Virus record (IMG/VR): IMGVR_UViG_3300031857_000743
Coordinates: 1 to 33,641 of that record
Source of the DNA: a virus
Length of the DNA stretch: 33,641 nt
Strand: one strand, 5' to 3'
In this document: positions 10,201 to 32,234 of the stretch, one piece after another
Layout: each line of letters starts with the position of its first letter
Position numbering within the stretch: the stretch's first letter is position 1
Translations under genes and position numbers: made by a program
The notes under the pieces: generated by a model
What the model was told of the DNA's origin: nothing
Database searches by the model: none
The model's input: the letters and a program-made list of their open reading frames with translations, nothing else

Positions 10201-10429
10201 GCGGTCCAGTTACACCTTGTGGTCCTTGTGGACCAAACACACCTTGTGGTCCTTGTGGTCCTTGCGGACCAATAACACCTTGTGGTCCCTGTGGACCTTG
10301 TGGTCCTTGCGGACCTTGTGGACCACCAGAAGGACCTGTTGGTCCAACAGCACCCTGAGGACCTGATGGACCCTGTGGACCAGTTAAACCTTGTGCGCCA
10401 CGACCTGTTGCAACTCTAACTGTAGTCAT
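7205..10429 (-). CDS. Collagen-like tail fibre protein with embedded globular modules
   Basis: This 1074-residue protein is mostly Gly-X-Y triplets, dominated by Gly-Pro-Gln, from about residue 11 to 1003, so it should form a collagen-type triple helix. Three globular insertions interrupt it. Two are near-duplicate modules of about 49 residues (160-208 and 405-453) containing [11 protein letters not shown] or its variant and DGDAYIV..GHLYV. The third is a cupredoxin-like domain at 501-603. The last ~71 residues, from [16 protein letters not shown] to the end, are a non-collagenous cap. The register slips in at least two places (GPSGGPQG near residue 35, QGAGPQG near 337). The ATG overlaps the upstream stop as ATGA, and a lectin gene follows after 1 base. 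Proline is abundant but mainly in the X position. Bacterial and phage collagens are usually fibre stalks, which fits this cluster. Confidence 0.88.
7421..10399 (-). repeat. Collagen-coding 9-bp tandem repeat array
   Basis: The array consists of Gly-Pro-Gln and related triplets with three globular interruptions. Gly, Pro and Gln synonymous codons alternate along it (for example GGA, GGT and GGC; CCA and CCG; CAA and CAG), which lowers exact DNA identity between units. Such arrays can still change length by slippage or recombination. Confidence 0.85.
8621..8929 (-). other. Cupredoxin-like domain inside the collagen-like fibre
   Basis: Residues 501-603 form a compact non-collagen domain. [20 protein letters not shown] is followed by PFWIQT, then a Gly/Asn-rich loop, then [20 protein letters not shown] and AMAGTI. 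His541, Cys588, His591 and Met594 (Cys-x2-His-x2-Met) reproduce the order of type-1 copper ligands in cupredoxins, with short ligand-loop spacing. Related domains occur in other marine phage proteins as I remember them. Copper binding is possible but unproven. Confidence 0.6.
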
Positions 10430-11376: not shown

Positions 11377-12336
11377 TTACTCTCTATTTGGAACTTCCCA
11401 ATCGACTTCTACACTCGGATCTGCCTTCAGATGCCTAGAGAGTGCTCGTTCCTCTAATTTTCTATTTATATAATCGACACCCGAATACTTGCGGAAAGCC
11501 TCGAGTTGCTCCTCGTCGAGAGAATAGAGATAATTGCTGAGTTCCTTTTCAGACCTTTCTTGATTCATTCGAAGTCGATGTGCATTTGCCACTGGGTTGA
11601 CAGTTTGTTTCGTCTCGTAATTTGAAGAGCGAAGATAGTGATAAACCTTTGCTCGACGCATATGATAGATCTTATATCCCTTTACGAAAGAACTGATAAC
11701 GAACATCTGCTCTTCGCCTTCGAAGAAGATATTTGTATTGTATCCAACCTCGCGGACCCATTTGGCAGGAGCAAAGAAGTTCCCAGCGCAAATGTGGCGA
11801 GATGGAGCAACTACATCTCGAGCAGGAACCCATGGACCATGAGCATGAAGTCTCATATTCTTATCGAATTGATAGTATCCAAGATTGACTGAAATGTCGT
11901 CAGTCAATGTATGCTTGGTAATTCTATCACCATCAAGATCAAAGTTCTTTGTGCCACAGGTCAAGAGAACTTTATCATGTCCTGCAACTTTACAGGCTTG
12001 CATATAATCAAGAACTAGATAATTGTCCCAACCTTTATCAAAGAGCATATGAGAATCGATTTGATACTGAAACTCTTCTTCATAGATTTGCATCGCATTG
12101 ATACCGCGAGCCCAAACTACACCGTCAGAATATTCTGGATCAATTCGTTTATAACGAACTCGTTTGTGAGTTGCTAGATGCGGATACTTTGTCTTTAAAC
12201 TATCTTCTAATGCAGTTTGTTCAAAAACGCCATAAACAATTTGATTGCGACCAGATTCATTTTCCATGGCACTTTCAAGAGTTGGTGCGAGTAGTTTGTC
12301 TCTATATGAGCAAACATTTACAAATATCTTTTTCAT
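11377..12336 (-). CDS. GT60-like polypeptide GlcNAc transferase (Gnt1/PF11397-like)
   Basis: This 319-residue protein matches the GT60 pattern of Dictyostelium Skp1 GlcNAc transferase and relatives. It has an N-terminal IFVNVCSYRDKLLAPTL (4-20), GVVWARGINAMQIYEEE (72-88), and QIDSHMLFDKGWD (92-104), where Asp94-Ser-His96 stands in for the DXD metal motif. CAGNFFAPAKWVREV (183-197), FFEGEEQMF (204-212) and HMRRAKVYHYLR (225-236) complete it. In the family, UDP-GlcNAc is the donor and the acceptor is hydroxyproline (Skp1) or Thr (trypanosome mucins). The C-terminal ~80 residues, from about 250, look helical. The ATG overlaps the upstream stop (ATGA), within the operon led by a 2OG oxygenase. 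The family is recognised by motifs, while the phage acceptor is unknown. Confidence 0.78.
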   Translation of the reverse strand: MKKIFVNVCSYRDKLLAPTLESAMENESGRNQIVYGVFEQTALEDSLKTKYPHLATHKRVRYKRIDPEYSDGVVWARGINAMQIYEEEFQYQIDSHMLFDKGWDNYLVLDYMQACKVAGHDKVLLTCGTKNFDLDGDRITKHTLTDDISVNLGYYQFDKNMRLHAHGPWVPARDVVAPSRHICAGNFFAPAKWVREVGYNTNIFFEGEEQMFVISSFVKGYKIYHMRRAKVYHYLRSSNYETKQTVNPVANAHRLRMNQERSEKELSNYLYSLDEEQLEAFRKYSGVDYINRKLEERALSRHLKADPSVEVDWEVPNRE

Positions 12337-13078: not shown

Positions 13079-13816
13079 TTAATCCCTCTTTCTCAATTCA
13101 TATGTATAGTGATGTGTTCTCATGCCTTGAGTTTGCTGAATTTTTTCAATAGTTTTCATTTCTTTCGCAGTCATTTTTCGCACTTTTGGTTTTTTCGGAA
13201 ATGAATCTCTCTTGATTGGGATAGCAGTAATGATTGGTGTCCCTGCGGGTAGATGTATATCTGCATCATAGATTTTTAAAACTGCTGGAAAATTAACTTC
13301 CTTTGGATATACATCTGTATCTACAAACCCAGACAAACAAGTAAATGGTTGGTCAAAATGATTTAGCGGTGGTACAAAAAGAGTTGACCAACCTGGAGCT
13401 GTTTTGATCACCCATCGATTAATAAATTTGAGTGCATTTCCATGTTTGATGCCTAATTTGTTTTTTCCACCTAATTGAATTGCATCATGAAACTCACAAG
13501 CAACTATCCCTGGAGGGTTTTTGACTTCAATTTGAGTGTTATCGTGATTGCTGCGAATATGAAGATCTGCTACGAGCGGAATCATATATCCAAGAGACAT
13601 TGCATCCAGCATTGGCAAACACTTTTTTGCACTCATAAGTTTGCTACCAAATGCGTCTCTTTGGTCTTCTGGTCCTTCACAAGTAGGCGCAAGATCTTTA
13701 AACCACTCTGGAAGATTTTTAATCGCTGCTTTTGGTTCTGGAATAAGATCTTCTAGATTTGGATGGCAATAAAACTCTATAATCTCATTACCAAACATTC
13801 TTTTCAAATTTAACAT
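13079..13816 (-). CDS. DUF6065-like protein, paralogue A
   Basis: This 245-residue protein has the fullest DUF6065-like pattern in the window. An N-terminal EFYCHPNLEDLIPEPKAAIK is followed by NLPEWFKDL, KKCLPMLDAMSLGYMIPLVA, FINRWVIKTAPGWSTLFVPP, CLSGFVDTDVYPKEVNFPAV and LPAGTPIITAIPIKRDSF. I chose the ATG at 13814-13816, which overlaps the oxygenase stop by 7 bases. A longer reading to 13840 would need a TTG start and a larger overlap, and an ATG at 13796-13798 is also possible. The C-terminal ~40 residues are Lys/Thr-rich. Function is unknown. Its place between a 2OG oxygenase and a GlcNAc transferase suggests a role in the same modification process. Confidence 0.68.
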   Translation of the reverse strand: MLNLKRMFGNEIIEFYCHPNLEDLIPEPKAAIKNLPEWFKDLAPTCEGPEDQRDAFGSKLMSAKKCLPMLDAMSLGYMIPLVADLHIRSNHDNTQIEVKNPPGIVACEFHDAIQLGGKNKLGIKHGNALKFINRWVIKTAPGWSTLFVPPLNHFDQPFTCLSGFVDTDVYPKEVNFPAVLKIYDADIHLPAGTPIITAIPIKRDSFPKKPKVRKMTAKEMKTIEKIQQTQGMRTHHYTYELRKRD

Positions 13817-14412
13817 GATCTTTCGCCCATCACCCAACAAACAAGAGATTTACGAGTTCCTTTAGTTACAGGTGCAACTCGATGGGGCATCCAGGATGCA
13901 AAGAAAATTGCATCGCCTCTTTTTGGTTTAATTGTCATTGGCTCATCAACACGACCATGAAGAACGCATTGAAATTCACCACCCTCATAATCCTCAGGAT
14001 CGGTTAACACTATGGTTGCGCTAATTTTTCTTTCAAATTTGGAATAAGTATTGCCAGCATCGATATGCCAGTCATAGTGCTGCTTATTTTTTGCTTTGTA
14101 GACAGTATATTGAAAATTTTCAAATCCGTCAATTTCATACATGAAATGATCATAATTGACCATCGCTGTCAAATGAGCAAATTTTTGGAATAGCCAGTCT
14201 GAGTTTTGTTCGTGGTTAATCCACATAACATCGCTGTCGCGAACTTTTTTATTTACTTGACCTGCACCACCACCGCCACCAACTCCACCTCGTTGGAACT
14301 TTTGCAGATCTTCAAGATCAATGATCTTGTCTATTTCTTCTTGCGTAAATGCTTCATTTGCGATACAAAATTGATTCAATTCGCGTACATATTTTTGTAC
14401 AGGATATGGCAT
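13810..14412 (-). CDS. 2OG-Fe(II) oxygenase, prolyl-4-hydroxylase / PiuC-like
   Basis: This 200-residue enzyme belongs to the prolyl-4-hydroxylase-like 2-oxoglutarate/Fe(II) oxygenases. The iron ligands are His116 and Asp118 in HYDWHIDAG and His177 in SWMPHRVAPV, and Arg187 in TKGTRKSLVCWV should bind the 2-oxoglutarate carboxylate. YTVYKAKN, ISATIVLTDPEDYEGGEF and KPKRGDAIFF are the usual beta-helix strands. A Gly-rich stretch (GGVGGGGGAG, 42-51) lies in the N-terminal part, where relatives have a shorter loop. A GAGGTGA ribosome binding site (14416-14422) precedes the ATG. It heads the operon that contains two DUF6065-like genes and the GT60-like transferase. Substrates in relatives include proline in proteins, and proline hydroxylation is an inference here. 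T4-like marine phages often carry such enzymes. Confidence 0.85.
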   Translation of the reverse strand: MPYPVQKYVRELNQFCIANEAFTQEEIDKIIDLEDLQKFQRGGVGGGGGAGQVNKKVRDSDVMWINHEQNSDWLFQKFAHLTAMVNYDHFMYEIDGFENFQYTVYKAKNKQHYDWHIDAGNTYSKFERKISATIVLTDPEDYEGGEFQCVLHGRVDEPMTIKPKRGDAIFFASWMPHRVAPVTKGTRKSLVCWVMGERSC

Positions 14413-14492: not shown

Positions 14493-17042
14493 TTACTCAA
14501 GCGTCACATTTACTTGTCCACCTGGAGGAACAGTCACTGGATAGTTACTATTGTCAGGATAGTCATAGTATGAGACGACAGTTGGAGAAACTGTTGGGGC
14601 AGTGCCAGGATTCCCAGCAAATCCAGATAGATCAACAGGACCGCCAGGAAGATATACACCAAGAACTGTTGTTGGGGTTCCAACATTTCCTGGAGTATAT
14701 GCAGTTACTGGTCTTGCAGCTTCTGGTTGATTGGCAATTGGGTAAGCGACATTATAATTGGTGTTATAATTGACAGTCCATGCGGTTGATGGACGAGCCG
14801 CTTCTGGTTGCGTTGCGATTGGATACACAACATTATAATTTGAATTATAATTAATCGTCCATGCAGTAGCAGGTCGGGTTGCTTCTGGTCGGTTAGCAAT
14901 TGGATACACAGTATTATAGTTAGTGTTATAATTAATCGTCCATGCAGTCACAGGTCGATTTGCTTCAGGATAGACTGTATTGTAATTTGTTGACCAAGTT
15001 GTTGCTGGACGAGCTTGTTCTGGTTGTGTGGCAATTGGGTATGCCACATTATAATTAGATGTCCAAGCAGTTACTGGTCGAGTGGCTTCTGGTCTGTTTG
15101 CAATTGGGTAAGCGACATTATAATTGGTGTTATAGTTGATCGTCCAAGCATTTACTGGTCGAGTGGCTTCTGGATATGCAACATTATAGTTAGTGTTATA
15201 ATTAATCGTCCAAGCATTTACAGGTCGATTTGCTTCTGGATAGATTGTATTATAGTTCGTTGACCAAGTTGTTGCTGGACGAGCTTGTTCTGGTCTATTT
15301 GCAATTGGATAAGCAACATTATAGTTTGTTGACCAAGCAGTTACTGGTCGACCCGATTCTGGCTGAGTTGCAATCGGATAAGCAACATTGTAATTGGTGT
15401 TATAAGTGATAGTATATGCAGTTACTGGTCGACCAGACTCTGGTTGATTTGCGATTGGATAAGCAACATTGTAATTGGTATTATACAAAATAGTGTATGC
15501 ATTGATCGGTTGATTCGCAATCGGATATGCAACATTATAGTTTGTATTATACAAAATAGTGTATGCATTAATTGGCTGATTTGCAATCGGATATGCGATA
15601 TTATAATTGGTATTGTAGTTAATTGCATATGCAGTTGCTGGTTGAGTACCAATCGGATACGCAACATTATAGTTTGTGTTATAGTTCGCATTATTGCCAA
15701 CAGGTGTGCAAACAAATGCGGTATAGGTTTCAACAACCAGTGCTGGAAAGAAGTAATAAAATGTTTCTGATTGATAGAATGGTGATGGGCAACCTGGCTG
15801 CGCTGGATCTCCTGCACCGCTGTAGTAGAAACTGCCGCTGTTACTATTATAAGTATAACTATTACTATAATGATTAAAACTATTTGCTGGATTGTAGTTT
15901 GCAACTGGTTGATTTGCAACTGGATAAACAACATTATAGTTTGTTGACCAAGCAGTTACTGGTCTTGCAGCTTCTGGTCTATTCGCAACTGGATATGCTA
16001 CATTATAGTTTGTTGACCATGCAGTCACTGGGCGACCTTGTTCTGGTCTATTCGCAACTGGATATGCTACATTATAGTTTGTTGACCAAGCAGTTACAGG
16101 TCGACCTTGCTCTGGACGATTTGCAATTGGATACGCGACATTATAATTTGTGTTATAGGTTATGCTATACGCCGTTGCTGGTCGACCAGATTCTGGCTGA
16201 TTCGCGATCGGATATGCAACATTATAGTTGGTATTATAAGTGATTACCCAAGCATTCGCTGGTTGGTTGGCAATTGGATATGCAACATTATAGTTTGTAT
16301 TATAGTTGATAGTCCATGCATTTGCAGGCTGATTTGCGATTGGATATGCCACATTATAATTAATAGACCAAGTAGTTGCTGGTCGCGCTGCCTCTGGACG
16401 ATTTGCAATCGGATATGCCACATTGTAGTTAATAGACCAAGTAGTGGCTGGTCTTGCAGCTTCTGGTTGGTTGGCAATCGGATATGCCACATTATAATTC
16501 GTGTTATAATTAATCGTCCAAGCTGTTGCTGGTTGATTCGCTAATGGATAAGCAACATTGTAATTTGTATTATAATTGATCGTCCAAGCGGTTGCGGGTT
16601 GATTCGCGATCGGATACACGACATTATAGTTAATGGTCCATGCAGTTGATGGACGAGTGGCTTCTGGCTGATTCGCAATCGGATACGCGACATTATAGTT
16701 TGTATTGTAATTGATCGTCCAAGCAGTGGAAGGACGAGCAGCCTCTGGTTGATTCGCCAAAGGATAGGCTACATTATAATTCGTGTTGTAGTTGATGGTC
16801 CAAGCAGTAGATGGTCGAGCGGCTTCTGGTTGATTCGCGATCGGATATGCGACATTATAGTTGGTGTTGTAATTGATTGTCCAGGCAGAAGAAACTGGAG
16901 CATTACCTGAACCGCCACGACCTGTGACAGTCCCTTTATATCGACCATATGGGATTGTTAAAGAGGAAGGTGCATTAAAAGTTTGCGATCCACGGGAACC
17001 ACCACCCAACCAACTTTTACCTAAATCCGTACTTCTTGGCAT
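14493..17042 (-). CDS. Asn-Tyr-Asn / Ala-Tyr-Pro repeat fibre protein, paralogue B
   Basis: This 849-residue protein starts with a glycine-rich TFNAPSSLTIPYGRYKGTVT and GRGGSGN cap (20-47). It is then made of 22- or 27-residue repeats (NYNTNYNVAYPIANQP, optionally EAARP or ESGRP, then xTAW). A unique island at about 390-455 splits the repeats. It contains FNHYSNSYTYNSNSGSFYY and the only two cysteines of the protein (Cys418, Cys445). After more repeats it closes with TPTTVLGVYLPGGPVDLSGF, a Ser/Thr/Pro linker and YPVTVPPGGQVNVTLE. Both ends and the island layout match the adjacent gene at 17121-19361. A GGAAAG ribosome binding site and an AATAAATA promoter-like site precede it. A virion fibre or adhesin role is inferred; no known repeat family is recognised. 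Confidence 0.72.
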   Translation of the reverse strand: MPRSTDLGKSWLGGGSRGSQTFNAPSSLTIPYGRYKGTVTGRGGSGNAPVSSAWTINYNTNYNVAYPIANQPEAARPSTAWTINYNTNYNVAYPLANQPEAARPSTAWTINYNTNYNVAYPIANQPEATRPSTAWTINYNVVYPIANQPATAWTINYNTNYNVAYPLANQPATAWTINYNTNYNVAYPIANQPEAARPATTWSINYNVAYPIANRPEAARPATTWSINYNVAYPIANQPANAWTINYNTNYNVAYPIANQPANAWVITYNTNYNVAYPIANQPESGRPATAYSITYNTNYNVAYPIANRPEQGRPVTAWSTNYNVAYPVANRPEQGRPVTAWSTNYNVAYPVANRPEAARPVTAWSTNYNVVYPVANQPVANYNPANSFNHYSNSYTYNSNSGSFYYSGAGDPAQPGCPSPFYQSETFYYFFPALVVETYTAFVCTPVGNNANYNTNYNVAYPIGTQPATAYAINYNTNYNIAYPIANQPINAYTILYNTNYNVAYPIANQPINAYTILYNTNYNVAYPIANQPESGRPVTAYTITYNTNYNVAYPIATQPESGRPVTAWSTNYNVAYPIANRPEQARPATTWSTNYNTIYPEANRPVNAWTINYNTNYNVAYPEATRPVNAWTINYNTNYNVAYPIANRPEATRPVTAWTSNYNVAYPIATQPEQARPATTWSTNYNTVYPEANRPVTAWTINYNTNYNTVYPIANRPEATRPATAWTINYNSNYNVVYPIATQPEAARPSTAWTVNYNTNYNVAYPIANQPEAARPVTAYTPGNVGTPTTVLGVYLPGGPVDLSGFAGNPGTAPTVSPTVVSYYDYPDNSNYPVTVPPGGQVNVTLE
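14700..16886 (-). repeat. 66-81 bp tandem repeats coding NYN...AYPIANQP units (gene B)
   Basis: Long stretches repeat units of about 22 or 27 codons, broken by the non-repeated island at roughly 15678-15875. Neighbouring units are highly similar at DNA level but differ at synonymous sites and in whether the EAARP/ESGRP/EQARP block is present. Unit gain and loss by recombination is likely, and exchange with the similar array in the adjacent gene is possible. Confidence 0.82.
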
Positions 17043-17120: not shown

Positions 17121-19361
17121 TTATTCAATCTGAATATCAACATATCCACCTGGAGGCACTGAGACTGGGTGTGTCTGATAGTCTGGGAAACTCCAATAGA
17201 CAACTTCTGTTGCTGGAACATAAGGAGCAACTGTAGAAACTGGTCCTCCAGGAAGATATACACCAAGAACTGTTGTTGGGGTGCCCACAGTTCCAGGAGT
17301 GTATGCGGTTATCGGCTGATTTGCGATCGGCTGAGTTGCAATCGGATATGCGATATTGTAGTTTGTACTATAGGTTGTTGCTGGGCGACCAGACTCTGGT
17401 TGATTCGCGATCGGATAAGCAACATTATAGTTTGTAGTGTAGTTGATAGTCCAAGCAGTAACTGGTCTGTTGGCTTCTGGATATGTGATTGTATTGTAGT
17501 TAGTATTATAGTTAGTCGCCCATGCATTTACGGGTCGATTCGCGATCGGATATACACCAGCGTTGTAATTTGTTGACCATGCATTAGAAGGTTGATTGGC
17601 AATTGGTTGATTCGCGATCGGATACACACCAGTATTGTAATTAGTTGACCAAGTTGTTGCTGGCTGATTGGCAATTGGTTGATTCGCGATCGGATACACA
17701 CCAGTGTTGTAATTAGTTGACCATACTGTTGCTGGTTGGTTAACAATTGGTCTTGCTTGTTCTGGATAAACACCAGCATTATAGTTGATTGTCCATGCAG
17801 TTGCTGGTTGAGTAGCAATTGGATAAATTAGATTATAGTTGATTGTCCACGCAGTTATCGGTCGATTTGCTTCTGGTCCATTTGCGACATTATAATTGAC
17901 TGTCCATGCAGTTGCTGGTCGATTTGCAATTGGATAAACACCAGGAGCATAAGTTACACCATAATTAATTGTCCATGCAGTTGCTGGTCGATTTGCAATT
18001 GGATAAACACCAGCATTATAATTGACCGTCCATGCAACTGCTGGTCTTGCTTGTTCTGGTCTATTTGCAATTGGATAAACGCCAGCATTGTAATTAATTG
18101 CCCAAGCAGTGGATGGTCTCCCAGATTCATTTCCAGGTACTGTATCGCATGTGCTTTGTGAATAAGTATAGTAATATACTAGATAGCCACCTGGACTTAT
18201 GAACGATAAATTATCTTGTCCTGGAAAAGTAGTGGCATAGGATACATATCCAGGAAGTGGAGACATTGTGCCATTTTCGCTTGGTGGACATGGACCAGTT
18301 CCATACACATTCCAAGATTGACTACCTGACCCAAAATTTTGTTCATCAAAGAAATATTGATTTATTTGACCAGTCCATGTTGTATTTGGTGCATTATATG
18401 TGATAGACCATGCAGTAATTGGTCTGTTGGCTTCTGGATAGACAATAGCATTATAATTAGTGTTGTAATTGATAACCCATCCAGTCACAGGTCGATTTGC
18501 TTCAGGATAGACAATAGCATTATAGTTTGTAGTCCATGCATTTACAGGTCGATTACCAGCATTATATGCAGTGACTGGATATGTTAATGCATTATAATTA
18601 GTCGTCCATGCAGTTACTGGACGAGCTTGTTCTGGATAAATTAAATTATAATTAATTGACCAAGTTGTTGCTGGTCGAGTGGCTTCTGGACCGTTTGCAA
18701 TATTATAGTTCGTTGACCAAGTTGTTACTGGACGAGCTTGTTCTGGATATGTGAGAGCATTATAGTTGATAGTGTAGTTAGTTACCCATGCATTTGCTGG
18801 TTGGTTGGCTATTGGATATGTGATTGTATTATAATTGGTGTTATAGTTAGTCGCCCATGCATTTGCTGGTTGGTTGGCTATTGGATATGTGATTGCATTA
18901 TAATTGGTACTATAATTTGTAACCCAAGCAGTTGCTGGTTGGTTGGCTATTGGATATGTGATTGTATTATAGTTTGTTGACCAAGTTGTTGCTGGCTGAT
19001 TTGCGATTGGTTGATTTGCAATTGGATAAACACCAGCGTTATAGTTGATTGACCAAGTTGTTGCTGGTCGAGTGGCTTCTGGCTGAGTTGCAATCGGATA
19101 GATGACATTATAATTTGGTGAGTATGTAATTGTCCAAGCAGTAGCTGGTTGATTTGCAATTGGATAAGCAACATTATAATTGGTATTATAATTTGTAACC
19201 CAAGCAGATGCTACTGGTGAGTTTCCAGATCCACCACGACCTGAAACTTTAGCAACATGGCGACCATAGTCGATTGTAATGCTTCCTGGAGCATTAAATG
19301 TAGTTGTGCCTCTAGACGGTCCAACTATCCATGTTTTATTTAACTCAAACGGTCTTGGCAT
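17121..19361 (-). CDS. Asn-Tyr-Asn / Ala-Tyr-Pro repeat fibre protein, paralogue A
   Basis: This 746-residue protein is a tandem paralogue of the next gene. It has the same N-terminal cap (TTFNAPGSITIDYGRHVAKV then SGRGGSGN) and repeats such as AWTINYNAGVYPIANRP and TTWSTNYNTITYPIANQP. A unique island (about 330-412) holds its only two cysteines, Cys358 in GPCPPSENG and Cys405 in QSTCDTVPG. The closing segment is TPTTVLGVYLPGGPVS... ending HPVSVPPGGYVDIQIE. The island sequence is unrelated to that of paralogue B even though its position and bracketing cysteines are similar, so this may be the specificity part. The ATG follows the beta-repeat fibre stop by 5 bases, so both are probably co-transcribed. 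Fibre or adhesin function is inferred. Confidence 0.72.
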   Translation of the reverse strand: MPRPFELNKTWIVGPSRGTTTFNAPGSITIDYGRHVAKVSGRGGSGNSPVASAWVTNYNTNYNVAYPIANQPATAWTITYSPNYNVIYPIATQPEATRPATTWSINYNAGVYPIANQPIANQPATTWSTNYNTITYPIANQPATAWVTNYSTNYNAITYPIANQPANAWATNYNTNYNTITYPIANQPANAWVTNYTINYNALTYPEQARPVTTWSTNYNIANGPEATRPATTWSINYNLIYPEQARPVTAWTTNYNALTYPVTAYNAGNRPVNAWTTNYNAIVYPEANRPVTGWVINYNTNYNAIVYPEANRPITAWSITYNAPNTTWTGQINQYFFDEQNFGSGSQSWNVYGTGPCPPSENGTMSPLPGYVSYATTFPGQDNLSFISPGGYLVYYYTYSQSTCDTVPGNESGRPSTAWAINYNAGVYPIANRPEQARPAVAWTVNYNAGVYPIANRPATAWTINYGVTYAPGVYPIANRPATAWTVNYNVANGPEANRPITAWTINYNLIYPIATQPATAWTINYNAGVYPEQARPIVNQPATVWSTNYNTGVYPIANQPIANQPATTWSTNYNTGVYPIANQPIANQPSNAWSTNYNAGVYPIANRPVNAWATNYNTNYNTITYPEANRPVTAWTINYTTNYNVAYPIANQPESGRPATTYSTNYNIAYPIATQPIANQPITAYTPGTVGTPTTVLGVYLPGGPVSTVAPYVPATEVVYWSFPDYQTHPVSVPPGGYVDIQIE
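17300..19208 (-). repeat. Tandem repeats coding NYN...YPIANQP units (gene A)
   Basis: Units of about 17-27 codons repeat through most of the gene and are more divergent in length than those of gene B. They are interrupted by a unique island at about 18125-18375. The repeat consensus is shared between the two genes, which suggests duplication of the whole gene followed by separate array evolution. Confidence 0.8.
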
Positions 19362-22518: not shown

Positions 22519-25500
22519 TTAACCCTCTGGAGTTGCAATCACACGAAGATTTCTAATCTTTGGTACTAATGATGCATCGGTTGTTGTTAAGACGACCTTA
22601 ACAGCAAACGACTTAAATTTACCGCCGAGTGGATAAGTTGTTCCATTTTCAACATAAGCGAGTCTATTTTCAAGCAGATCTGGTCTAAACTCTAATCCAA
22701 TTAAAGATCTTGCGCTCTTAGAATATGTATTCTTTACCTTTTGCATTAACTGCCAGCTCTTATCTGCAAAACGATCGTTATCTTCTACAGACTTAACCTT
22801 ATAATAAACATTAATATCTGTTCCTGTTGGGCGAATTGCGTCCATAAACACTCTCATGTCACCAGACTCGAATCCATCTTCAAGAACGATTTCGCGACTA
22901 ATATATTTGGCTTGAATATTACCGCCAGACTTACCTGTCTCGCCAGCAATAACTGCTGTTGCATTCGCGTTTGGTGTAGCATTACCAGATACGATTTGAA
23001 TTGTTGGAGTAGTTAGATAGCCACTGCCTGGATCGGTGATAACAACATAATTAACTCTATCATCACCATTAGTATTTGCGACAGCAAAGCCAGTTGCACC
23101 AGAACCACCACCACCAGAAATGTTAATTGCATAGAATCCAATATTTGCATTATTTGCAAAGATATACTGGCGATATAGTGCAGCATTTGCTACTAGTGTA
23201 GAAACACTAGTTCCAAATACATTTTCTTGTGCATTAGAAACATTTGCTGCAGTTATTGTTGCATTATATCCAGTACCATAACCTAATAGAGAGATGGTTG
23301 TATTTGGGATACCTGCATTATCGACGAGATACTTCGATGCTGTCAAACCAAGTCTTTCAATGTTTACAATTGGCGAAATGTCTGGGTCTGGTGTAGACAT
23401 CGTTAAACTCAATATAAAACTATTTGCATCTCCCTTGAGCAACTTACGGCGATTGATAGAAGTCTTATTTGACTTATCAAGTAATGCGCCATATTCAAGT
23501 GGCGAGAATTTAGTCAATTCAACACCGCTTGCACCCTCTTGAGTTGTGCCGCTACCATTTGCATATATTCCACGGAGGCTATATGAAAGATCGGTAACAG
23601 GGAAATCAAGATCAGAAGCAAGCAAGATAACTTTATCAACATAGTTGTTTGCTTCTGGAGCAGAGTCTAGCGCAAACTGAGCAGTACCATCACCAGAGTT
23701 GTGGAATACAGCCTTATTAATCACAAACATCAAATCTTGATTTTGATATGGTGTCCAAGTTGATGAGTTTTGTGAGCGGAAGAATGAACCAGCATATGGC
23801 TGTTCAGAAATGCGTCGAGATGGTGTTACACCAAGAACATCGGCACCAATTTCTGCAATGAACACCTCATAATCTGGAGAGTCAGATCCAAGAACGAGTG
23901 CGTATTCTCGAGATGGTTCTAAGAACACTGGATCATCGAAAGTAAACTTTGTAACCGTTGCTGAGTTTCCTGTGCTTGGAACATTAGAAATCTTAACATC
24001 TTTACACTGAATTGTTTTAGCGGCAAGATAGTTCTTTGTTGGATAACCATTTTGAACTTCTGCAATCTTCAATGTAATTGGAAGCTGCATTGAACCAAGT
24101 GATGTCAATGGCTTGCTCTTAAAGAATAGATCCACAGAAGTTACGAACATACCGTAGTCTTGTTTATTCGCATTAATTTTTGGTTTTGGCGTAAAGAATG
24201 TTTGAGACAAACCATCGCCAAGATTAATACGAGGTGTCGTTGATCCAGTAGACGCAGTTGTTGGATTCTTTACAGCATCACTATTATATGATCGCTCTGA
24301 CGGAGCAACAGGACGAATTAGTGCATCAGCATCAACCTCAGGCATTGGCTGAAGTGTTGGTGTTGTCTGAATTCGCTGTGTTGTTTTTAGAATACCACTC
24401 GACATAAACGAACCAGCGGCACGCATTGCGTAATCTGGATCATCAACTGTAGAAGTATCAGTAATTGTTAGAACACGATTACCTGTCTTAAATTTAAATC
24501 CAGGGAATGCTGGAACCTGAAACACGCCAGCTAAACAGCTGGTGTCATCGACAACAAAGTTGCCGATAGAATAATGTGTATTTGAAGAGTAATCTAGGTC
24601 AAGTGCTGAATCAAGAGTTACAGTTCTTCCACTTACAGCTGTAATTAGTTTTAAAGATCCAGCTGATGTTCCAGAAGTAAAGTAAATCAAATTGCCAGCA
24701 GCACCTGAGGTGTTTGCACTGGTTGGAAGCAATACTTGCGTCAATCCAGAATTTAATGTATTTGCAAGAACACCAGAGGTATGAGTGTATGATGTGATCT
24801 TAATATTTGCAGAGTTTGCAACACTCTTAACATAAGAACCAACTGGGAATCCTGTTTCATTAAATGTTTGAATATGAAGTGGTTTTGGTGAAGCAGTATC
24901 AGTAATACACCACAATCTGACATTTGCATTCGTGCTTGTGCTTGTAGCATTGGCAAGCATATAGCCATCAATTGGCTTTAAAGCAATTCTTCCGTCTGTT
25001 AAATTAATATATTCAATATGTGCACGGAATGATGCAAGATCATATCTTGCTGCACCGTCAGCTGTTTGATATACAAGGTCGCCAACTCTAAACTTTGACG
25101 AGTAATCTGCTAGAGTTGATCCAGAAGTTGCCACAACATTTAAGTTGTGGAAATTTTGATTTAGATAAACAACATCGTCACCGCTTGTTGCGATAACTTT
25201 CGCAAACACTTTGTCGCCTAATGCACCAGTAGCGATTACACCCTCGCCTGGATAGAAAGAGTCAGAATTATCATATTCAGTAGCACTGATAATTGATAGA
25301 TTTGCATATGTGACAAAAGATCCATTCTCAACGAAAATTGAGGCAGAAGGGTCAAAATTGCCTGATTGAGAGCGAAGAACAAAAGAACTATTTCCAGAAA
25401 AGTAAGTGTCTACAATTGCAGAAAATGTATTTGATGCGCTTGAAGTTCCTTGGTAAACTAACTGCCCAGAAGTAGGCGCAGTAGAAGAATTTGACGAGAA

Positions 25501-25695
25501 AGCAATAACTTTCTTTGCGTCAATTTCTACCTTATTTGCAACCTGACAAAATCGATTTACTGCAATGTCATCAAAAAAGATTGATGCTATCTTACCTGGC
25601 TTTAGATTTCTACCAGTAAATTCGATATCTCTTGTGCGCATATATGGCACAAGATTTGTATCGACAACTACTGTTCCAAACTCTGTTTTAATCAT
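22519..25695 (-). CDS. Large virion structural protein (cyanophage-type, baseplate/fibre region)
   Basis: This 1058-residue protein opens with a GTVVVDTNLVPYMRTRDIEF strand region and GRNLKPGKIASIFFDDIAV, a pattern I know from large structural proteins of T4-like marine phages. A later NYVVITDPGSGYLTTPTIQI segment is the common GxGY...P beta motif. The C-terminus has FMDAIRPTGTDINVYYKVKS, SFAVKVVLTTTDASLVPKIR and NLRVIATPEG, again typical. It would form part of the baseplate periphery or fibre attachment. The start has a CTAGGAAA-type ribosome binding site in the 19-base gap. It follows the DUF4815-type gene as it does in related genomes. The exact T4 equivalent is unclear. Confidence 0.72.
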   Translation of the reverse strand: MIKTEFGTVVVDTNLVPYMRTRDIEFTGRNLKPGKIASIFFDDIAVNRFCQVANKVEIDAKKVIAFSSNSSTAPTSGQLVYQGTSSASNTFSAIVDTYFSGNSSFVLRSQSGNFDPSASIFVENGSFVTYANLSIISATEYDNSDSFYPGEGVIATGALGDKVFAKVIATSGDDVVYLNQNFHNLNVVATSGSTLADYSSKFRVGDLVYQTADGAARYDLASFRAHIEYINLTDGRIALKPIDGYMLANATSTSTNANVRLWCITDTASPKPLHIQTFNETGFPVGSYVKSVANSANIKITSYTHTSGVLANTLNSGLTQVLLPTSANTSGAAGNLIYFTSGTSAGSLKLITAVSGRTVTLDSALDLDYSSNTHYSIGNFVVDDTSCLAGVFQVPAFPGFKFKTGNRVLTITDTSTVDDPDYAMRAAGSFMSSGILKTTQRIQTTPTLQPMPEVDADALIRPVAPSERSYNSDAVKNPTTASTGSTTPRINLGDGLSQTFFTPKPKINANKQDYGMFVTSVDLFFKSKPLTSLGSMQLPITLKIAEVQNGYPTKNYLAAKTIQCKDVKISNVPSTGNSATVTKFTFDDPVFLEPSREYALVLGSDSPDYEVFIAEIGADVLGVTPSRRISEQPYAGSFFRSQNSSTWTPYQNQDLMFVINKAVFHNSGDGTAQFALDSAPEANNYVDKVILLASDLDFPVTDLSYSLRGIYANGSGTTQEGASGVELTKFSPLEYGALLDKSNKTSINRRKLLKGDANSFILSLTMSTPDPDISPIVNIERLGLTASKYLVDNAGIPNTTISLLGYGTGYNATITAANVSNAQENVFGTSVSTLVANAALYRQYIFANNANIGFYAINISGGGGSGATGFAVANTNGDDRVNYVVITDPGSGYLTTPTIQIVSGNATPNANATAVIAGETGKSGGNIQAKYISREIVLEDGFESGDMRVFMDAIRPTGTDINVYYKVKSVEDNDRFADKSWQLMQKVKNTYSKSARSLIGLEFRPDLLENRLAYVENGTTYPLGGKFKSFAVKVVLTTTDASLVPKIRNLRVIATPEG

Positions 25696-25714: not shown

Positions 25715-28700
25715 TCATTTCTTTTTAAATTCTAAATCGTCATACTCGAATCGCATATTATGGTGGAGAATATACGCTCCCTCAGTTTCACCAGCCCAGA
25801 AACTATTGTTTCCAGTATCGATACCACGAACAAATTTCTCACCGAGGTATTCAACACTTACAACTTCTTTCCAAGCAGACTCATTGTCTTTATTTACACC
25901 AATCATTTGCCCAATCAAATTTGGTGCCTTCATCACACCATTATTTAAGGTTGGTATTGGAGCGGTTGTTGAGCAGACGAGAGATGTTCCGCATTCAGTT
26001 GTAATTCTTACGCATGGTTGCCATTCAATTCCGCTATGAACAACCTTACCAACGACAGTTTCAAGCGAGACTTCGTTAGCAAGAAGAATATCCATACCAT
26101 CCATGAGCATATATGCTTGCGTGACAGGATTACCATTGTAAAGTTTTTGCTCAATAAGAGGAACAAAACTTTCTAGAACAACACAGCCGCCACCACCAGT
26201 ACGAATTGGCTGTTTTACAACAACCACTGGCTCTGGTTCTGGAGGTGGTGGTTCGATTGGGATCCAAATCGGCACCTCTGGCGGAACACCGATATCGATG
26301 ATCTCTGGTGGAGGTGGTGGAGGTGGTGGCGGTTCCCATGGTAGTGGTGGTGGCTCTGGTGGAAGAGCTGGTGGAGGTGGCTCCACTGGTTGTGGATCAA
26401 CAATAATTGGTGGAGGTGGATGCTTGACAATAATCTCATCAGGTGGTAAAGGTGGCGGTGGAAGAACCGCAGGTTCACGAATGATGATCGTTTCCACATT
26501 TCTTGTTGGGAAGATCTGCTCAATTGTAATTTGTGGTTGTTTTTCAATAATCGTTTCTTTAATTACTGTCGTGTGTTCAATGCGAACTCTTTCTGGAACA
26601 GTAATAATTTCTGGCTTGAGTTGATTGTCAGTCCAAAAATCAGTTTCTGGAGCCATTTCTACAATGCCATTGAACTGACCAAACAAGAATGGTTGTACAG
26701 ATACCGCCTTATCTGAAACAAGGTTTTGAGAAATTGCTGGTGTTTCTGTGAAGTTCAATGAAATTGTTTTCTTATTCAACTTCATATCAGCCAATACTTT
26801 ATTCTTAAATGCAAGCGGTAATGTAGTTGTTCTTGGTGTTAAGAAACCTTGATCAAGCGCACAACTAAATCCTGGATCTTTAAAGTCAGCAATCGAGAAG
26901 TTGCGGAAGTTTTCACCAACAATACCAAACTTTTCTTTTTCTGTGTTATCTTCGTACAATGTCTTATCATTCATGGCTAGATTTTCAACATTGTTTAGCG
27001 AGACAAAGAACTCGAGTTTTTGCACTCTTTTATCAATACTTGAAATGTCTTTCATAGTAAAGCGTCGATTTTCATTATATTCTGTTCGAATATCTTGAAC
27101 ATCATTAACATATGGAGGCAAGCGCAATGTATACATGGTCATTGCGTCATCGTCATCCTTTGGAATAGATGGAATAACTGCAGACTTACCCTTAATTACT
27201 CGGAACTCTTTATCTTTTGACAACACAAGTTTGTCAATACGAGGTAGGTAATAGTCAAATGACAACTCAGTTGTTGAATCTGGGTGCGGGAAGTTTGGAA
27301 CATTGAATGTATCTGCAACATCACCAACTGGTCGAGATGGACGGAAATCTAAACAGTCTCGTAGATACAAAATGTTTCCATTTGTATCTGTATATACTGG
27401 AATTAAATTATCGTCATATTGATCTGCGCCATATGAAGACGGACCGAAGAATGATAGTTTATTCGTAGAAGAATAAATGTGGTGGTAGAAGTTTACATGA
27501 ACAAGGAGTTTACCAGAAGGTGTACTGTAGCCCTGCTTCAAAATTATTTTTGCATGGTCATATTTGTCGTCGCGCTGACCATAGTCAAAAACAAATCTTT
27601 CAGTAATGTCTTCAACATTATCAACATCTGGATAATGCGTTGTGTTGCCCATGAGAACTTTATTGACCTTTACCACATCTGGAAGGAACAATGAAATTGA
27701 ATCGCCTGGACGGACAGCGTTATATGTTGGATTTGAAAGCCAAATTAAACCATTTGCAAGATTTAGTGATGCAACATGTCCAAGATTTGTTATGGAAACC
27801 TCAGTATTTTGAGTAGCGTTTGATGATGGGTATGTGAACGGATCTGCGCTAAAAGAGGAATCTGCATAATATGTCTTTGTGCGAATTAGATCTTCAGCAT
27901 CATTAACCTTAACACGAATAATTGCATCAATTGATTGTAATAAAGCATCACCAGTATCAATTGTAATCTGGCTTGATGTGACAGTCACATTCGCTGATGT
28001 AAGATTTAATATTGCACCATTCGGAGTAGTTGAACCACCATTATCGCGAACTGCAATCACAAGGTTTTGACGAATAGAGCTTGTTGTTCCTGACCACGGA
28101 ATTGTTGCTGTTGAGAGATCACCTGCACCGATAATGAAGACACCAGGAGAACCGACCGAAACTGTTTTATTTAAAATAGCCTTGTCGTGCTCATAATCAA
28201 CATTATTGATTGATGTTCTTGCAACAAATGTTCCAGGAAGCTGGTAAATGAACACCTTGTCTTGTGGTTCAGACAATACAACATCGCCGCTGATGAGTTT
28301 TGAATCAATGGCAACATTCATTGCTGTATTAACATTTGCAAGCAATGAATTTGCGACGGCAAGACCAGAAACTATACACTCAGCGTCATCTACACCAAAG
28401 TTTAATTGGAATACCGTATTTGAATCTGGCACACCTAGATTATCAAATGGACGATCTAATTGGAGAGTGGCATAATTTGATTGCCACCACGAGTTTGCAA
28501 TAGTTCTTGTTTGCCCACCAACATTTTGTGTATGTGCAGTTTGCTTATAGACAAGCACTGGATTTGATGCAGAGTTTGCTAATGCATAAGAGAATATTGA
28601 GTTAACGACGAGATTTCCTGTATCAACTCTAACAACTTCTTTTGCAAAGTCGCCAACACGAATAATATCACCAACAGAGATCTTACCTGCAAATGTTCCA

Positions 28701-30217
28701 CTAGAGTTTGCATTCACATTAAATGCGTTAGCATATGATGCATAAACATCAGCAACTGCATCTAGTTTAATTGGAAGAATTGTTAGTGAAACATTCGAAT
28801 ACAATCCATTTGTTCTCGGCATAAATTGACCAGAGGCAACATTGATCGTATTTGAAGTGTGTGTTCCAGCGGCACGCAATACTTTAGGAACAATGTTAAC
28901 ATCTGTCAAATAAATTCTGTATACACCATTACCGTCGACAATTGATTCAGTGCTATTGTCTTCGCGAACAAAGTCGCGAACTCTTGCTGTACCGATCTTT
29001 GTATTCTGATAGATAAATCCATTTGCAGCAGAACTGCCGAGACCGACATTGATTTGTGTTGCAGTACCACAGTGAATATCAACCTTTTCCATGGCAGCAA
29101 TGTTAATAAAGGCATTACCCTGCCCTGGAGATACAATTGATGTTACATAAAGATAATTTCCAGAAGAGGTGTCAACATCAACATCAACAATTGATTTTAC
29201 ATCAGCTGCGCTTCTTGGTTTTTCAACATCAATCTTAACTTGTCCGAGGGTTTCGAATTCAAAACCCTTAACATATGCTTTTCCTGGCTCAATGATGATT
29301 GTATAGTTATTTGCATCAGTGCCATCCATTACGGATGCGCGGAATGGGCGAACAGTATAGTCACCAGATTCGTCGAAGGTGCGACGAGCAAGAGTTTTTT
29401 CTAACTCTGCATAGATTGGATATTTGACTTGTTTGGTGATAATACCATTTTCAAGACGCATTAATTCGAAGAATTGTGCTTCGTCAATGATAGAATCAAG
29501 TGGACGAGTTGAGAGTGTTAGATTAAACTGATAACGATCGCCGCCTGGAGCCTGATAGTTAAATGATCCTTGAGCAGGGTCTAATAGGGTCGTATCAATT
29601 TCACTATCAACAATTGTATCATTAATCTCAAGACCGATCTTAACATTCGCAGTTACATCATAAGCCGCTGCGACAACTGTCTGATCAGAGACTTGAACAA
29701 AGAATCCGTCGACATAAAACACGCCTTCGTTAATAGAAACAACTGTGGCTTGACCACTAGCGTTAGAAGCAATTAACTGGGCTTGTGTGGTTGATCCAGC
29801 AATTTTAATCACATCACCGTCTTGGAATTCAAGACCAGTCAAATACTTAACAACAAGAGTAGGAATGCCGTCGGTTGGAAAGTATGTTGCAAGAACTTTT
29901 GCTTGAACTGATCCTGAAGTGTTTCGAACAACCTTGCGATCAAAATCTTCGATTTCAATATCGACATTATTAAAAGTTTCTAGGAGCTTGATGTGTCGAA
30001 CTTTGTTATCGAGAGTTAAATTACCACCAATAACTGGGGAACCGTCTTGGAAAACATGGTCACCGAATTGCTTAATCTGATTCTGTAGAATAGACTGTAT
30101 TTGCGTAAGTTCACGAGCCTGGACTGCCTTTCCTGGCTTGAAAAGAATGCGCATATAGTTATTATCTCGCGCATTATCATCAAAATCATCATAATACGGT
30201 TCAATATTAAATTCCAT
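25715..30217 (-). CDS. DUF4815-type baseplate structural protein with polyproline linker and C-terminal Hint-like domain
   Basis: This 1500-residue protein starts MEFNIEPYYDDFDDNARDNN and YMRILFKPGKAVQARELTQI, then QSILQNQIKQFGDHVFQDGS, which is the DUF4815 pattern of T4-like marine phage structural proteins. The central region has beta-rich modules, including one of the GDxIxVxxxxxxV type also seen in gp8. Residues 1248-1344 are proline-rich with a run of nine prolines. From Cys1345, in GGGCVVLESFVP, a ~143-residue Hint-like domain runs to His1485-His1486-Asn1487, followed by 13 residues ending FKKK. The gene lies 10 bases after gp8 with a CTAGGTAAAA ribosome binding site. The body is surely structural; the Hint assignment is by motif and less certain. 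Confidence 0.8.
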   Translation of the reverse strand: MEFNIEPYYDDFDDNARDNNYMRILFKPGKAVQARELTQIQSILQNQIKQFGDHVFQDGSPVIGGNLTLDNKVRHIKLLETFNNVDIEIEDFDRKVVRNTSGSVQAKVLATYFPTDGIPTLVVKYLTGLEFQDGDVIKIAGSTTQAQLIASNASGQATVVSINEGVFYVDGFFVQVSDQTVVAAAYDVTANVKIGLEINDTIVDSEIDTTLLDPAQGSFNYQAPGGDRYQFNLTLSTRPLDSIIDEAQFFELMRLENGIITKQVKYPIYAELEKTLARRTFDESGDYTVRPFRASVMDGTDANNYTIIIEPGKAYVKGFEFETLGQVKIDVEKPRSAADVKSIVDVDVDTSSGNYLYVTSIVSPGQGNAFINIAAMEKVDIHCGTATQINVGLGSSAANGFIYQNTKIGTARVRDFVREDNSTESIVDGNGVYRIYLTDVNIVPKVLRAAGTHTSNTINVASGQFMPRTNGLYSNVSLTILPIKLDAVADVYASYANAFNVNANSSGTFAGKISVGDIIRVGDFAKEVVRVDTGNLVVNSIFSYALANSASNPVLVYKQTAHTQNVGGQTRTIANSWWQSNYATLQLDRPFDNLGVPDSNTVFQLNFGVDDAECIVSGLAVANSLLANVNTAMNVAIDSKLISGDVVLSEPQDKVFIYQLPGTFVARTSINNVDYEHDKAILNKTVSVGSPGVFIIGAGDLSTATIPWSGTTSSIRQNLVIAVRDNGGSTTPNGAILNLTSANVTVTSSQITIDTGDALLQSIDAIIRVKVNDAEDLIRTKTYYADSSFSADPFTYPSSNATQNTEVSITNLGHVASLNLANGLIWLSNPTYNAVRPGDSISLFLPDVVKVNKVLMGNTTHYPDVDNVEDITERFVFDYGQRDDKYDHAKIILKQGYSTPSGKLLVHVNFYHHIYSSTNKLSFFGPSSYGADQYDDNLIPVYTDTNGNILYLRDCLDFRPSRPVGDVADTFNVPNFPHPDSTTELSFDYYLPRIDKLVLSKDKEFRVIKGKSAVIPSIPKDDDDAMTMYTLRLPPYVNDVQDIRTEYNENRRFTMKDISSIDKRVQKLEFFVSLNNVENLAMNDKTLYEDNTEKEKFGIVGENFRNFSIADFKDPGFSCALDQGFLTPRTTTLPLAFKNKVLADMKLNKKTISLNFTETPAISQNLVSDKAVSVQPFLFGQFNGIVEMAPETDFWTDNQLKPEIITVPERVRIEHTTVIKETIIEKQPQITIEQIFPTRNVETIIIREPAVLPPPPLPPDEIIVKHPPPPIIVDPQPVEPPPPALPPEPPPLPWEPPPPPPPPPEIIDIGVPPEVPIWIPIEPPPPEPEPVVVVKQPIRTGGGGCVVLESFVPLIEQKLYNGNPVTQAYMLMDGMDILLANEVSLETVVGKVVHSGIEWQPCVRITTECGTSLVCSTTAPIPTLNNGVMKAPNLIGQMIGVNKDNESAWKEVVSVEYLGEKFVRGIDTGNNSFWAGETEGAYILHHNMRFEYDDLEFKKK
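25757..26185 (-). other. Hint-like (intein/BIL-like) C-terminal domain
   Basis: The domain starts at Cys1345 after a Gly-rich turn and has VRITTECGTSLVCSTTAPIP as a block-B-like region. KEVVSVEYLGEKFVRGIDTG and NNSFWAGETEGAYILHHN follow as the closing strands with the C-terminal His-Asn. The residue after Asn1487 is Met, not Cys, Ser or Thr, so classical splicing is unlikely. The usual His of block B is not evident (TTAP is there instead). Self-cleavage or a purely structural role are open. Confidence 0.58.
26186..26476 (-). other. Polyproline linker coding segment
   Basis: Residues 1248-1344 of the DUF4815-type protein contain many Pro runs, including WEPPPPPPPPPEIIDIG with nine consecutive prolines. 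It joins the structural body to the Hint-like domain and probably forms an extended stiff linker. Polyproline runs slow ribosomes and usually require EF-P. They are also potential prolyl hydroxylase targets. Confidence 0.8.
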
Positions 30218-30227
30218 GTCTTTTTAC

Positions 30228-32234
30228 CTAGAATGATAGGATAATTTTAATCTGGTCGATCTGATTGTCTAGTCGAACAACATTTTTGCGATTCTCAGTA
30301 TATAACAAAGTACCACTAAATGGCTTAATTTCCGAGTTGGCAATTTCTATGATTGGAATAGAAATCCCTGAAGATTCGCCTTTTATCGCTTCTTGGACGG
30401 CAAAAGTACCAGTTATATTATTTATATACAAATAGTTATCGTTTGGATCCCAGTGAGCAACATTAGCAACACCAGATGCATTGATAACGGTAGAACCAAC
30501 ATAAACAGTTTCGTCTTGCACGAAGTTCGATACACCTGGATCAGCAACAAACAAACGAGTCGTTGCTCTTAAATTGTTAGAATTTGCGTATCGAGTCGTA
30601 TTATTCGCAAATCGATATATTGGATCCTGGATGATCGAAACTTGATTAAAGTCAAATAGTTGGGCGACCTGACTTACTGGAATTGTTTCGTTTTCGGATC
30701 TAACCAATTCCGTAGAAATCATTAAGGTGTGACACCCTAGTTCCTCGAATGGATTAGATCCATGACCACCATGAGGAGAGAACTGAATATTAAACTCAGC
30801 ATTTGAGCGAGTAATTACTGCAGTTTGAGTGCAAGCTGCACTATTTACAGCAGCATTCAACGAGAGCTGTGTTGAAGAAACAGTAACAACATTTCGCGAT
30901 TCTGCATTAACAGTGACAATGTCGTTTGGAAACACATTGGCTAAGAAGTATGGATTGTTCGAGAGATTAGCTGTGACTATCGAACCAGAAACATTAACTG
31001 TTCCTGGTAATGTAACAGTACCAAGTTTATCGTTATCATCGACTTCCACCGTACCGAGAGTGTAATTATTACCACCAGCCAAGATCGTAACACCAGTGAT
31101 TACACCACTCTCAACTCTTGCCATCAGATTAGCATTTGCTCCGTCAGTTCCCGTGACGGATATGATGCGAGCAGTATTAGAGTTTCCTCCCGCAACATGA
31201 CCAGAACCACCCCATAAAACCTCAATAATGTCAATTGCACCGTCAACCGATCCAGCCACCACAGCCTGATCAGTAATTACAGGCATCCACTTTTGATTAA
31301 AGAATTTTTGTTTTAAACCAGAAGGGATCGTATACAAATATTTCCATTTGTATCCATCTCCTGTCAAAATAAATGGACTTTCTGGTAACTGTCCATCAAT
31401 ATCAATAGTTGGCTCTACTGTCGAAACAGCATTATTATTGTCAAAGATACATTTAAACACCTGATCACGACTATTGCGAATATAGAAATTATTTGCAGTC
31501 AGTGGATAGGTATTGGAAACCGTAGAAACAGTAATATTAGAATTTGAATAAGTTAGCGCAGCATTTAAAGAAATAACTTTGCTGCTTCGAATTGCAACAA
31601 TTTCTCGGTCGTCAGTATTAATTCTTACGACATCTCCCACTGAACGAGCAGTGAAGTCTGCAGAGTTTGCGACAAGAGTTTTGGTATTCTTAACAAGAAC
31701 GATTGACCCACCAGTGTTTGTGTTTGCAAAATTGCTACTTACTACCAAATGATCATTGTTTGTGACAGAAACAACCGTTTTTGTAGCAAGGTTGACTGCA
31801 ATTTGATCACCAGGAAAAATATAATTTGAGAAAGAAGTTCCACTACCAACAACAACATTTGATGCTGTGATATTTACTGTTCCTGCTAGTGTAGTATTTG
31901 CATTTGCGTTCGCAGTACCGATATTATTAATATCGATATAATTAAACATATTCACATGATCTTCATATTGGTCATAGGTTATTCCAGAAGCCCAATCTCT
32001 ACGAGCAACAACTAACTGCATATCGCTAGATTGAATTTTCTTTAATCCAATAAGATTTCTATAGATTGAGTTAATATCAATTGTAGAATAAAGAACAGGA
32101 TCCACATCTGTCACAGAGGAACCAAATTCTACAGATCTTCCAATACCAATATAGACATTGGCATCATTTGAGAACTGTTCTTTGATGTCCTCTGCAAGGA
32201 ACTTACCGAAATATGGCGAGATTAATGCTTTCAT
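30228..32234 (-). CDS. 8: Baseplate wedge protein gp8 (T4-like) with inserted repeat modules
   Basis: This 668-residue protein has gp8 landmarks. VYIGIGRSVEFG lies near residues 27-38, IQSSDMQLVVARRDWASGIT at 67-86, FYIRNSRDQVFKCIFDNN at about 250-267, STVEPTIDID and GDGYKWKYLYTI at about 292-303. The strongest is FSPHGGHGSNPFEELG at about 483-498. gp8 is a wedge component that changes conformation when the T4 baseplate contracts. At 668 residues it is about twice T4 gp8 (334). Two insertions explain much of this: residues ~102-247 and ~405-477 hold beta modules (GDxIxVNxxxRxVxxV) like those repeated in the upstream protein. The gene is 3 bases from its upstream neighbour. Confidence 0.85.
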   Translation of the reverse strand: MKALISPYFGKFLAEDIKEQFSNDANVYIGIGRSVEFGSSVTDVDPVLYSTIDINSIYRNLIGLKKIQSSDMQLVVARRDWASGITYDQYEDHVNMFNYIDINNIGTANANANTTLAGTVNITASNVVVGSGTSFSNYIFPGDQIAVNLATKTVVSVTNNDHLVVSSNFANTNTGGSIVLVKNTKTLVANSADFTARSVGDVVRINTDDREIVAIRSSKVISLNAALTYSNSNITVSTVSNTYPLTANNFYIRNSRDQVFKCIFDNNNAVSTVEPTIDIDGQLPESPFILTGDGYKWKYLYTIPSGLKQKFFNQKWMPVITDQAVVAGSVDGAIDIIEVLWGGSGHVAGGNSNTARIISVTGTDGANANLMARVESGVITGVTILAGGNNYTLGTVEVDDNDKLGTVTLPGTVNVSGSIVTANLSNNPYFLANVFPNDIVTVNAESRNVVTVSSTQLSLNAAVNSAACTQTAVITRSNAEFNIQFSPHGGHGSNPFEELGCHTLMISTELVRSENETIPVSQVAQLFDFNQVSIIQDPIYRFANNTTRYANSNNLRATTRLFVADPGVSNFVQDETVYVGSTVINASGVANVAHWDPNDNYLYINNITGTFAVQEAIKGESSGISIPIIEIANSEIKPFSGTLLYTENRKNVVRLDNQIDQIKIILSF

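Follow-up and report, generated by a model that had tools for sequence, protein, structure and literature searches.

A phage baseplate protein carries at its C-terminus a Hint domain of an apparently undescribed, unnamed family with a reduced active site. As sequence comparisons indicate, this module has changed carriers, and in two unrelated ones it marks the point at which one ancestral polypeptide has become two adjacent genes. The finding adds an undescribed-looking, reduced-site Hint family to the structure of contractile-tail phages and links intein-type chemistry to sites where virion proteins split into two genes. Its interest lies in this mobile family at broken virion proteins, more than in the trimming of a tail in one phage.

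The carrier protein and its C-terminal domain

The window, that is the whole stretch of DNA analysed, is a 33,641-base virus record whose tail and baseplate region lies on the minus strand, as do all the window features given below. The carrier ORF (25715..30217) encodes 1500 residues and represents the N-terminal half of a VrlC/DUF4815 baseplate protein (DUF4815, E 6.9e-61; phrog_358, E 3.6e-200, profile positions 6-1115 of 2056). Both this match and the adjoining baseplate wedge gene (30228..32234; phrog_438 baseplate wedge subunit, E 2.3e-67) identify it as such. The VrlC core occupies residues 2-1205 (26603..30214), the stretch aligned to phrog_358, and the BLAST alignment with the unsplit VrlC of Mosig reaches residue 1276. 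A direct reading of the sequence then gives a Pro-rich stalk or linker (residues 1206-1340; 26198..26602), followed by a Gly run (1341-1344; 26186..26197) whose last member, Gly1344, is the -1 residue according to the sequence and the family alignment. An earlier note on this DNA had described a Cys after a Gly run, and indeed TGGGG precedes Cys1345, whose codon starts at 26185.

By the ORF coordinates, positions 25757..26185 are exactly Cys1345-Asn1487, a Hint domain of 143 residues without a homing endonuclease insert. It closes with AYILHHN (residues 1481-1487), and a C-terminal tail of 13 residues follows (MRFEYDDLEFKKK; 25718..25756), with no +1 nucleophile and a Lys at its end. Met1488 comes directly after AYILHHN, as had been claimed, but it is the first of the 13 residues and not an addition to them. 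A separate gene for the C-terminal half of VrlC (22519..25695) begins 19 bases past the stop of the Hint ORF; it matches phrog_358 profile positions 1322-1586 and further stretches, and corresponds to residues 1367-2042 of Mosig VrlC. The C-terminal position on a baseplate protein put forward in the earlier note thus holds (residues 1345-1487 of the 1500-residue DUF4815/VrlC protein); the portable family, and the fact that the carrier is half of a split VrlC, had both been missed.

No Pfam, NCBIfam or PHROG model covered the Hint domain when it and its relatives were scanned, and a single-sequence search of the PDB placed the NpuDnaB intein first with a weak score (E 0.39). A profile of 20 relatives searched against the PDB gave the PhoCDC21-1 intein (8e-5) and the gp41-1 intein (1.1e-4) on top, and the same two inteins led, more weakly, with a second profile (6.3e-4 and 0.028). 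An AlphaFold2 model built from 39 window and IMG/VR sequences (pLDDT 88.4, pTM 0.84) returned 53 PDB matches at E<=0.001 in Foldseek, the best 50 of which were all inteins, BIL domains or Hedgehog Hint domains. The NpuDnaB intein led (E 3.5e-7, TM 0.75/0.84), and the Clostridium BIL 2lwy and the Tetrahymena BIL2 were within the top ten, while the closest viral structure models were unnamed or 'uncharacterized'. The profile search and Foldseek rule out a chance resemblance. Residues 1345-1487 are, on these profile comparisons and the predicted structure, a Hint domain and a member of the Hint superfamily; the earlier note had made this identification and asked for an HHpred-type check, and Hint matches were found by both routes.

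A Hint family with a reduced active site

Relatives of the domain were seen in phages of Xanthomonas, Stenotrophomonas and Erwinia, and about 70 loci from IMG/VR also have them; a scan of genome contigs with only two peptide patterns gave none in cellular genomes. The domain is C-terminal in every complete relative, with 4-23 residues after the His-Asn across the family. The column counts below are based on 30 clusters, below 75% identity, formed from 58 distinct sequences. Seven columns only are invariant: Cys1345, Val1346, Gly1410, Ser1416, Pro1420, His1486 and Asn1487. They include the block A nucleophile (Cys1, 26183..26185) and the block G His1486-Asn1487 (25757..25762), both present in 30 of 30 clusters. 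A member found later (L189) keeps Cys1, the Ser and the His-Asn, and has Arg for Pro1420. Literature text searches found no paper on this phage Hint family, which is not proof of absence.

Alignment with inteins shows that in the block B segment (CGTSLVCSTTAPIP; residues 1409-1422; 25952..25993) the invariant Ser1416 is followed by Ala1419 in place of the catalytic His. The earlier note was right that this His is missing, and the observation extends to the whole family: position 1419 is Ala in 24 clusters, Thr in six and His in none. No cluster has the block-B His, so that the lack of it characterises the family, and its decay in one phage is ruled out. The position aligned with the block-F His is variable, with His in 2 of 30. 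Around the domain, the -1 residue is always small (Gly in 25 of 30 clusters, otherwise Cys, Ala, Thr or Ser), and the +1 residue is Val in 13, Ile in seven, Ala in four and Lys in two, with the others single; in the window it is Met. The tails are otherwise variable but contain a Lys among their last four residues in 26 of 30 clusters, versus 27% of other ORFs, a comparison that ignores relatedness.

We therefore describe the family as an A-type-BIL-like Hint variant and do not file it as a BIL because, on sequence, it has the Cys1, the C-terminal His-Asn (both 30 of 30) and the lack of a conserved +1 nucleophile, but not the block-B Thr/Ser plus His (the Ser is invariant, the His is replaced by Ala or Thr). 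The His-Asn ending is part of the A-type BIL definition, and a +1 residue that is mostly Val, Ile or Ala is as in BILs (PMC4031507). The A-type BIL of Clostridium thermocellum (PDB 2lwy) shares the Hint fold (Foldseek E 6.2e-7); the phage family differs from it also by its fixed C-terminal place on virion proteins.

The class 1 mini-inteins (NpuDnaB 4o1r, gp41-1 6qaz, PhoCDC21-1 6rpq) have the same fold with blocks A, B, F and G in the same order, but the phage family lacks, as a rule, a +1 Cys/Ser/Thr, as well as the block-B or block-F His and a real C-extein: in the window 13 residues precede the stop, and across loci the next gene lies in varying frames. A class 3 intein, without Cys1 and with a block-F Cys and a WCT motif, does not fit a family in which Cys1 is invariant; in the window the block-F segment (VRGIDTGNNSFWAGE) has no Cys. 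The Hedgehog Hint/Hog protein (1at0) resembles the carrier in fold (E 3e-4) and in having an N-terminal part followed by Cys1; the phage family differs in its His-Asn ending and in lacking a sterol-recognition region, as in the window only 13 residues follow the Hint domain.

A second, different Hint domain occupies the same C-terminal slot in some relatives of one carrier family, a virion-type protein that we label G2 (L162 3799-4227, L164 5776-6204, L173 5803-6231, and L166). It has a GGGC start, SANH or SPNH in block B, DAH in block F, and SHN-Val followed by a 12-residue tail, and it shows a weak match to PT-HINT (PF07591), unlike the present family. The two share the G2 slot, the GGG-Cys start, the His-Asn-Val and a short tail, but the block-B and block-F His are retained in the second domain only. 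This domain is also found on contigs of 200 and 335 kb, and a Lak phage locus (L223, from 2001) contains a distant relative ending HN-Ser, as in inteins.

Two further records contain unusual members. In the Xanthomonas phage PhiXhv-12, a stand-alone Hint-like protein of 139 residues (XYR92700.1; L013 3423-3842), without Cys1 and His-Asn, begins at the stop of a Hint carrier gene and could be a decayed copy or a partner. In the Stenotrophomonas phage DLP6, an unannotated Hint carrier ORF (L002 1206-1652) lies at the record start and runs off the record end, near the terminal repeat.

Autoprocessing as the preferred reading

The reading that we favour, with moderate confidence based on the sequences and the structure model, is that of an autoprocessing Hint module of A-type-BIL layout, attached through a Pro/Gly-rich stalk to the C-termini of virion proteins. 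Cleavage at the Gly-Cys bond at the stalk tip is the likely reaction, and ligation a possible one. Once the domain has folded, Cys1 would attack the Gly1344-Cys1345 bond in an N-S acyl shift, and the stalk would then end in a Gly thioester, open to hydrolysis or to transfer to an amine; Asn1487 could cyclise, dropping the 13-residue tail. That the phage may cut the C-terminal tail while the baseplate is assembled had been suggested in the earlier note. Something else would have to make up for the missing block-B His, unless the reaction is slow or waits for assembly to trigger it. The baseplate would be left with a processed stalk end that has lost its Hint. Ordinary class 1 splicing would need a +1 nucleophile and is therefore not to be expected. 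A-type BILs mostly cleave, and for their splicing it has been proposed that the freed amine attacks the thioester (PMC4031507). The presence of the module on unrelated tail proteins, in two of them at a break, suggests that phages may use intein-type chemistry to finish or join virion parts.

Several observations argue for autoprocessing. The fold is Hint by profile and by structure, Cys1345, Ser1416, His1486 and Asn1487 are four of the seven invariant columns, the -1 residue is always small, the +1 residue is BIL-like, and the Hint domain found in the same G2 slot looks canonical in its block-B His, block-F His and His-Asn. An N-terminal Cys/Ser and a C-terminal Asn/Gln/Asp are the sole residues found in all class 1 inteins, and the block-B His is substituted in several of them (PMC7664689). 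The conserved set thus fits an active site that is reduced but may still work. Arguments to the contrary are the family-wide absence of the block-B His and of the block-F helpers, and the finding that the Ssp DnaB intein with Gly at -1 needs its block-B His (PMC6333167). Should the phage family prove active, nature would have combined in it a Gly at -1 with a missing block-B His, which did not work in the Ssp DnaB intein, and compact tools for cleavage or ligation could be developed from it. Virions of phage XacN1 have been analysed by mass spectrometry (PMC5852040), and the part of that paper's text available to us does not mention the Hint protein ORF231; in the available part of the LucasX paper no mass spectrometry was found.

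Module exchange between virion proteins

The N-terminal parts of the carriers fall into several families unrelated by BLAST: VrlC/DUF4815, G2, a group that includes a baseplate hub protein (phrog_13211), fibre-like proteins with Ser/Thr/Pro stalks, and isolated cases. At their ends the carriers have long stalks rich in Pro, Thr/Pro or Gly. We conclude that the module changed carriers because the domain tree indicates it: the VrlC label has to change 3 to 5 times on it, and the copy that L025 has on VrlC (row L117) clusters with hub-type copies with support 100/99. No partner gene was found that all carriers share, the neighbours following the carrier protein. Some large phages have two Hint copies, and in two phages of about 170 kb (L097, L098) one of the two ends with a longer Cys-rich tail.

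This mobility has to be weighed with a first alternative, in which the Hint fold has been turned into an exposed stalk tip that serves for binding or as a structural element, with Cys1 and His-Asn kept for folding. The long stalks, the swapping among carriers, as would be seen for a display domain, and the loss of the block-B and block-F catalytic helpers are all compatible with it. However, it is precisely the two nucleophiles and the penultimate His that never vary, in a domain where much else does, and some relatives have a canonical-looking Hint in the same slot. We regard such a non-catalytic role as improbable, though it is the strongest of the competitors to autoprocessing.

Broken carrier chains

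VrlC is a single chain without Hint in the unsplit phages examined (Mosig, 2045 aa; ORM_20, 1722 aa; ECML-4, 1612 aa). VrlC/DUF4815 proteins of Kyanoviridae and Kuttervirus phages correspond to the carrier, both window halves being homologous to them, but where they are unsplit, one chain of 1612-2045 aa is found that lacks the domain. The N-terminal half in the window covers Mosig VrlC up to 1276 and the next gene covers 1367-2042, and both match phrog_358 in different parts of the profile. The same holds more generally: VrlC is broken at the Hint in all the module carriers examined, with both halves kept as adjacent genes. The breaks fall at 1276/1367 on Mosig VrlC and at 1477/1531 in phage DLP6, and there are therefore at least two break positions in VrlC.

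The second carrier for which a break could be traced is G2. Of 80 G2 relatives, 40 form one chain with a protein for which the Hint carriers have a gene of its own downstream; in 32 this protein is encoded by a separate adjacent gene, and three relatives bear the present Hint family. A rule by which the split always goes with the Hint is rejected for G2, many split loci having no Hint; the domain is therefore not required for the split. From the stop to the following start, distance and frame differ among loci, so that no common readthrough product is expected, and programmed frameshifting or readthrough into the gene of the C-terminal half is ruled out as a general route.

The breaks bring in a second alternative, argued by analogy: that the module is a portable, self-activating and ATP-free ligase at broken virion chains, passing the Gly thioester to a Lys or other amine of another polypeptide, so that the chains would be joined covalently. 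The acceptor could lie on the separately encoded half of VrlC, on a neighbouring subunit or on the host surface, or it could be the Lys at the C-terminus of the module itself. The Tetrahymena BIL2 indeed joins a ubiquitin-like domain to a Lys through an isopeptide bond (PMC8616854), and in its light the tail Lys is a lead for transfer, as is the adjacency of the halves in the broken VrlC and G2 carriers. BIL2 of BUBL1 (PDB 6y75, 6tmm) shares the Hint fold (E 1.3e-6) with the phage family, together with a candidate Lys acceptor, but it is placed between ubiquitin-like domains and works with His69 and zinc (PMC8616854), and the phage family has no such His; the isopeptide chemistry is known for BIL2, whereas the phage acceptor is a candidate from its sequence. 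Moreover, the G2 split also occurs in phages that have no Hint domain, the carriers share no partner gene, and the Lys statistic takes no account of relatedness. Ligation as the function of the module seems to us rather unlikely, slightly more so than a non-catalytic tip. If true, it would mean that separately encoded baseplate pieces are covalently joined, or that the stalk is anchored on the host surface or on some partner.

A third alternative, a self-releasing C-terminal chaperone for the stalk, would give the module a role like that of the intramolecular chaperone domains of tailspikes. The C-terminal place on tail proteins would suit it, and phage tailspikes are known to have C-terminal chaperone domains that cleave themselves (PMC8326128, PMC3742443), but fold and chemistry differ from those of the tailspike chaperones, and we regard this role as doubtful. 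Finally, the position at the break of an ancestral single chain could recall the relic of an intein once inside the VrlC gene and later separated from its C-extein when a stop codon and a further start arose, but the occurrence on several unrelated carriers with module exchange, the two or more VrlC break positions, the strict conservation and the 143 residues without an endonuclease insert make this very improbable.

Other genes of the tail region

The tail region also contains a 2OG-Fe(II) oxygenase gene (13810-14412), and another lies directly after a Hint carrier in PhiXhv-12 (L001 5441-6046). One idea, suggested by gene content, is that the oxygenase may hydroxylate Pro-rich or collagen-like virion proteins. 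A collagen-like protein of 1074 residues made largely of GPQGPQ repeats is encoded at 7205-10429, and two proteins of TAWTINYNTNYNVAYPIANQP-type repeats at 14493-17042 and 17121-19361; Pfam matches to the latter two (MuB C-terminal, NIPSNAP) look spurious. Three glycosyltransferase genes (1424-2173, 3483-4478 and 11377-12336) are found amid the tail genes.
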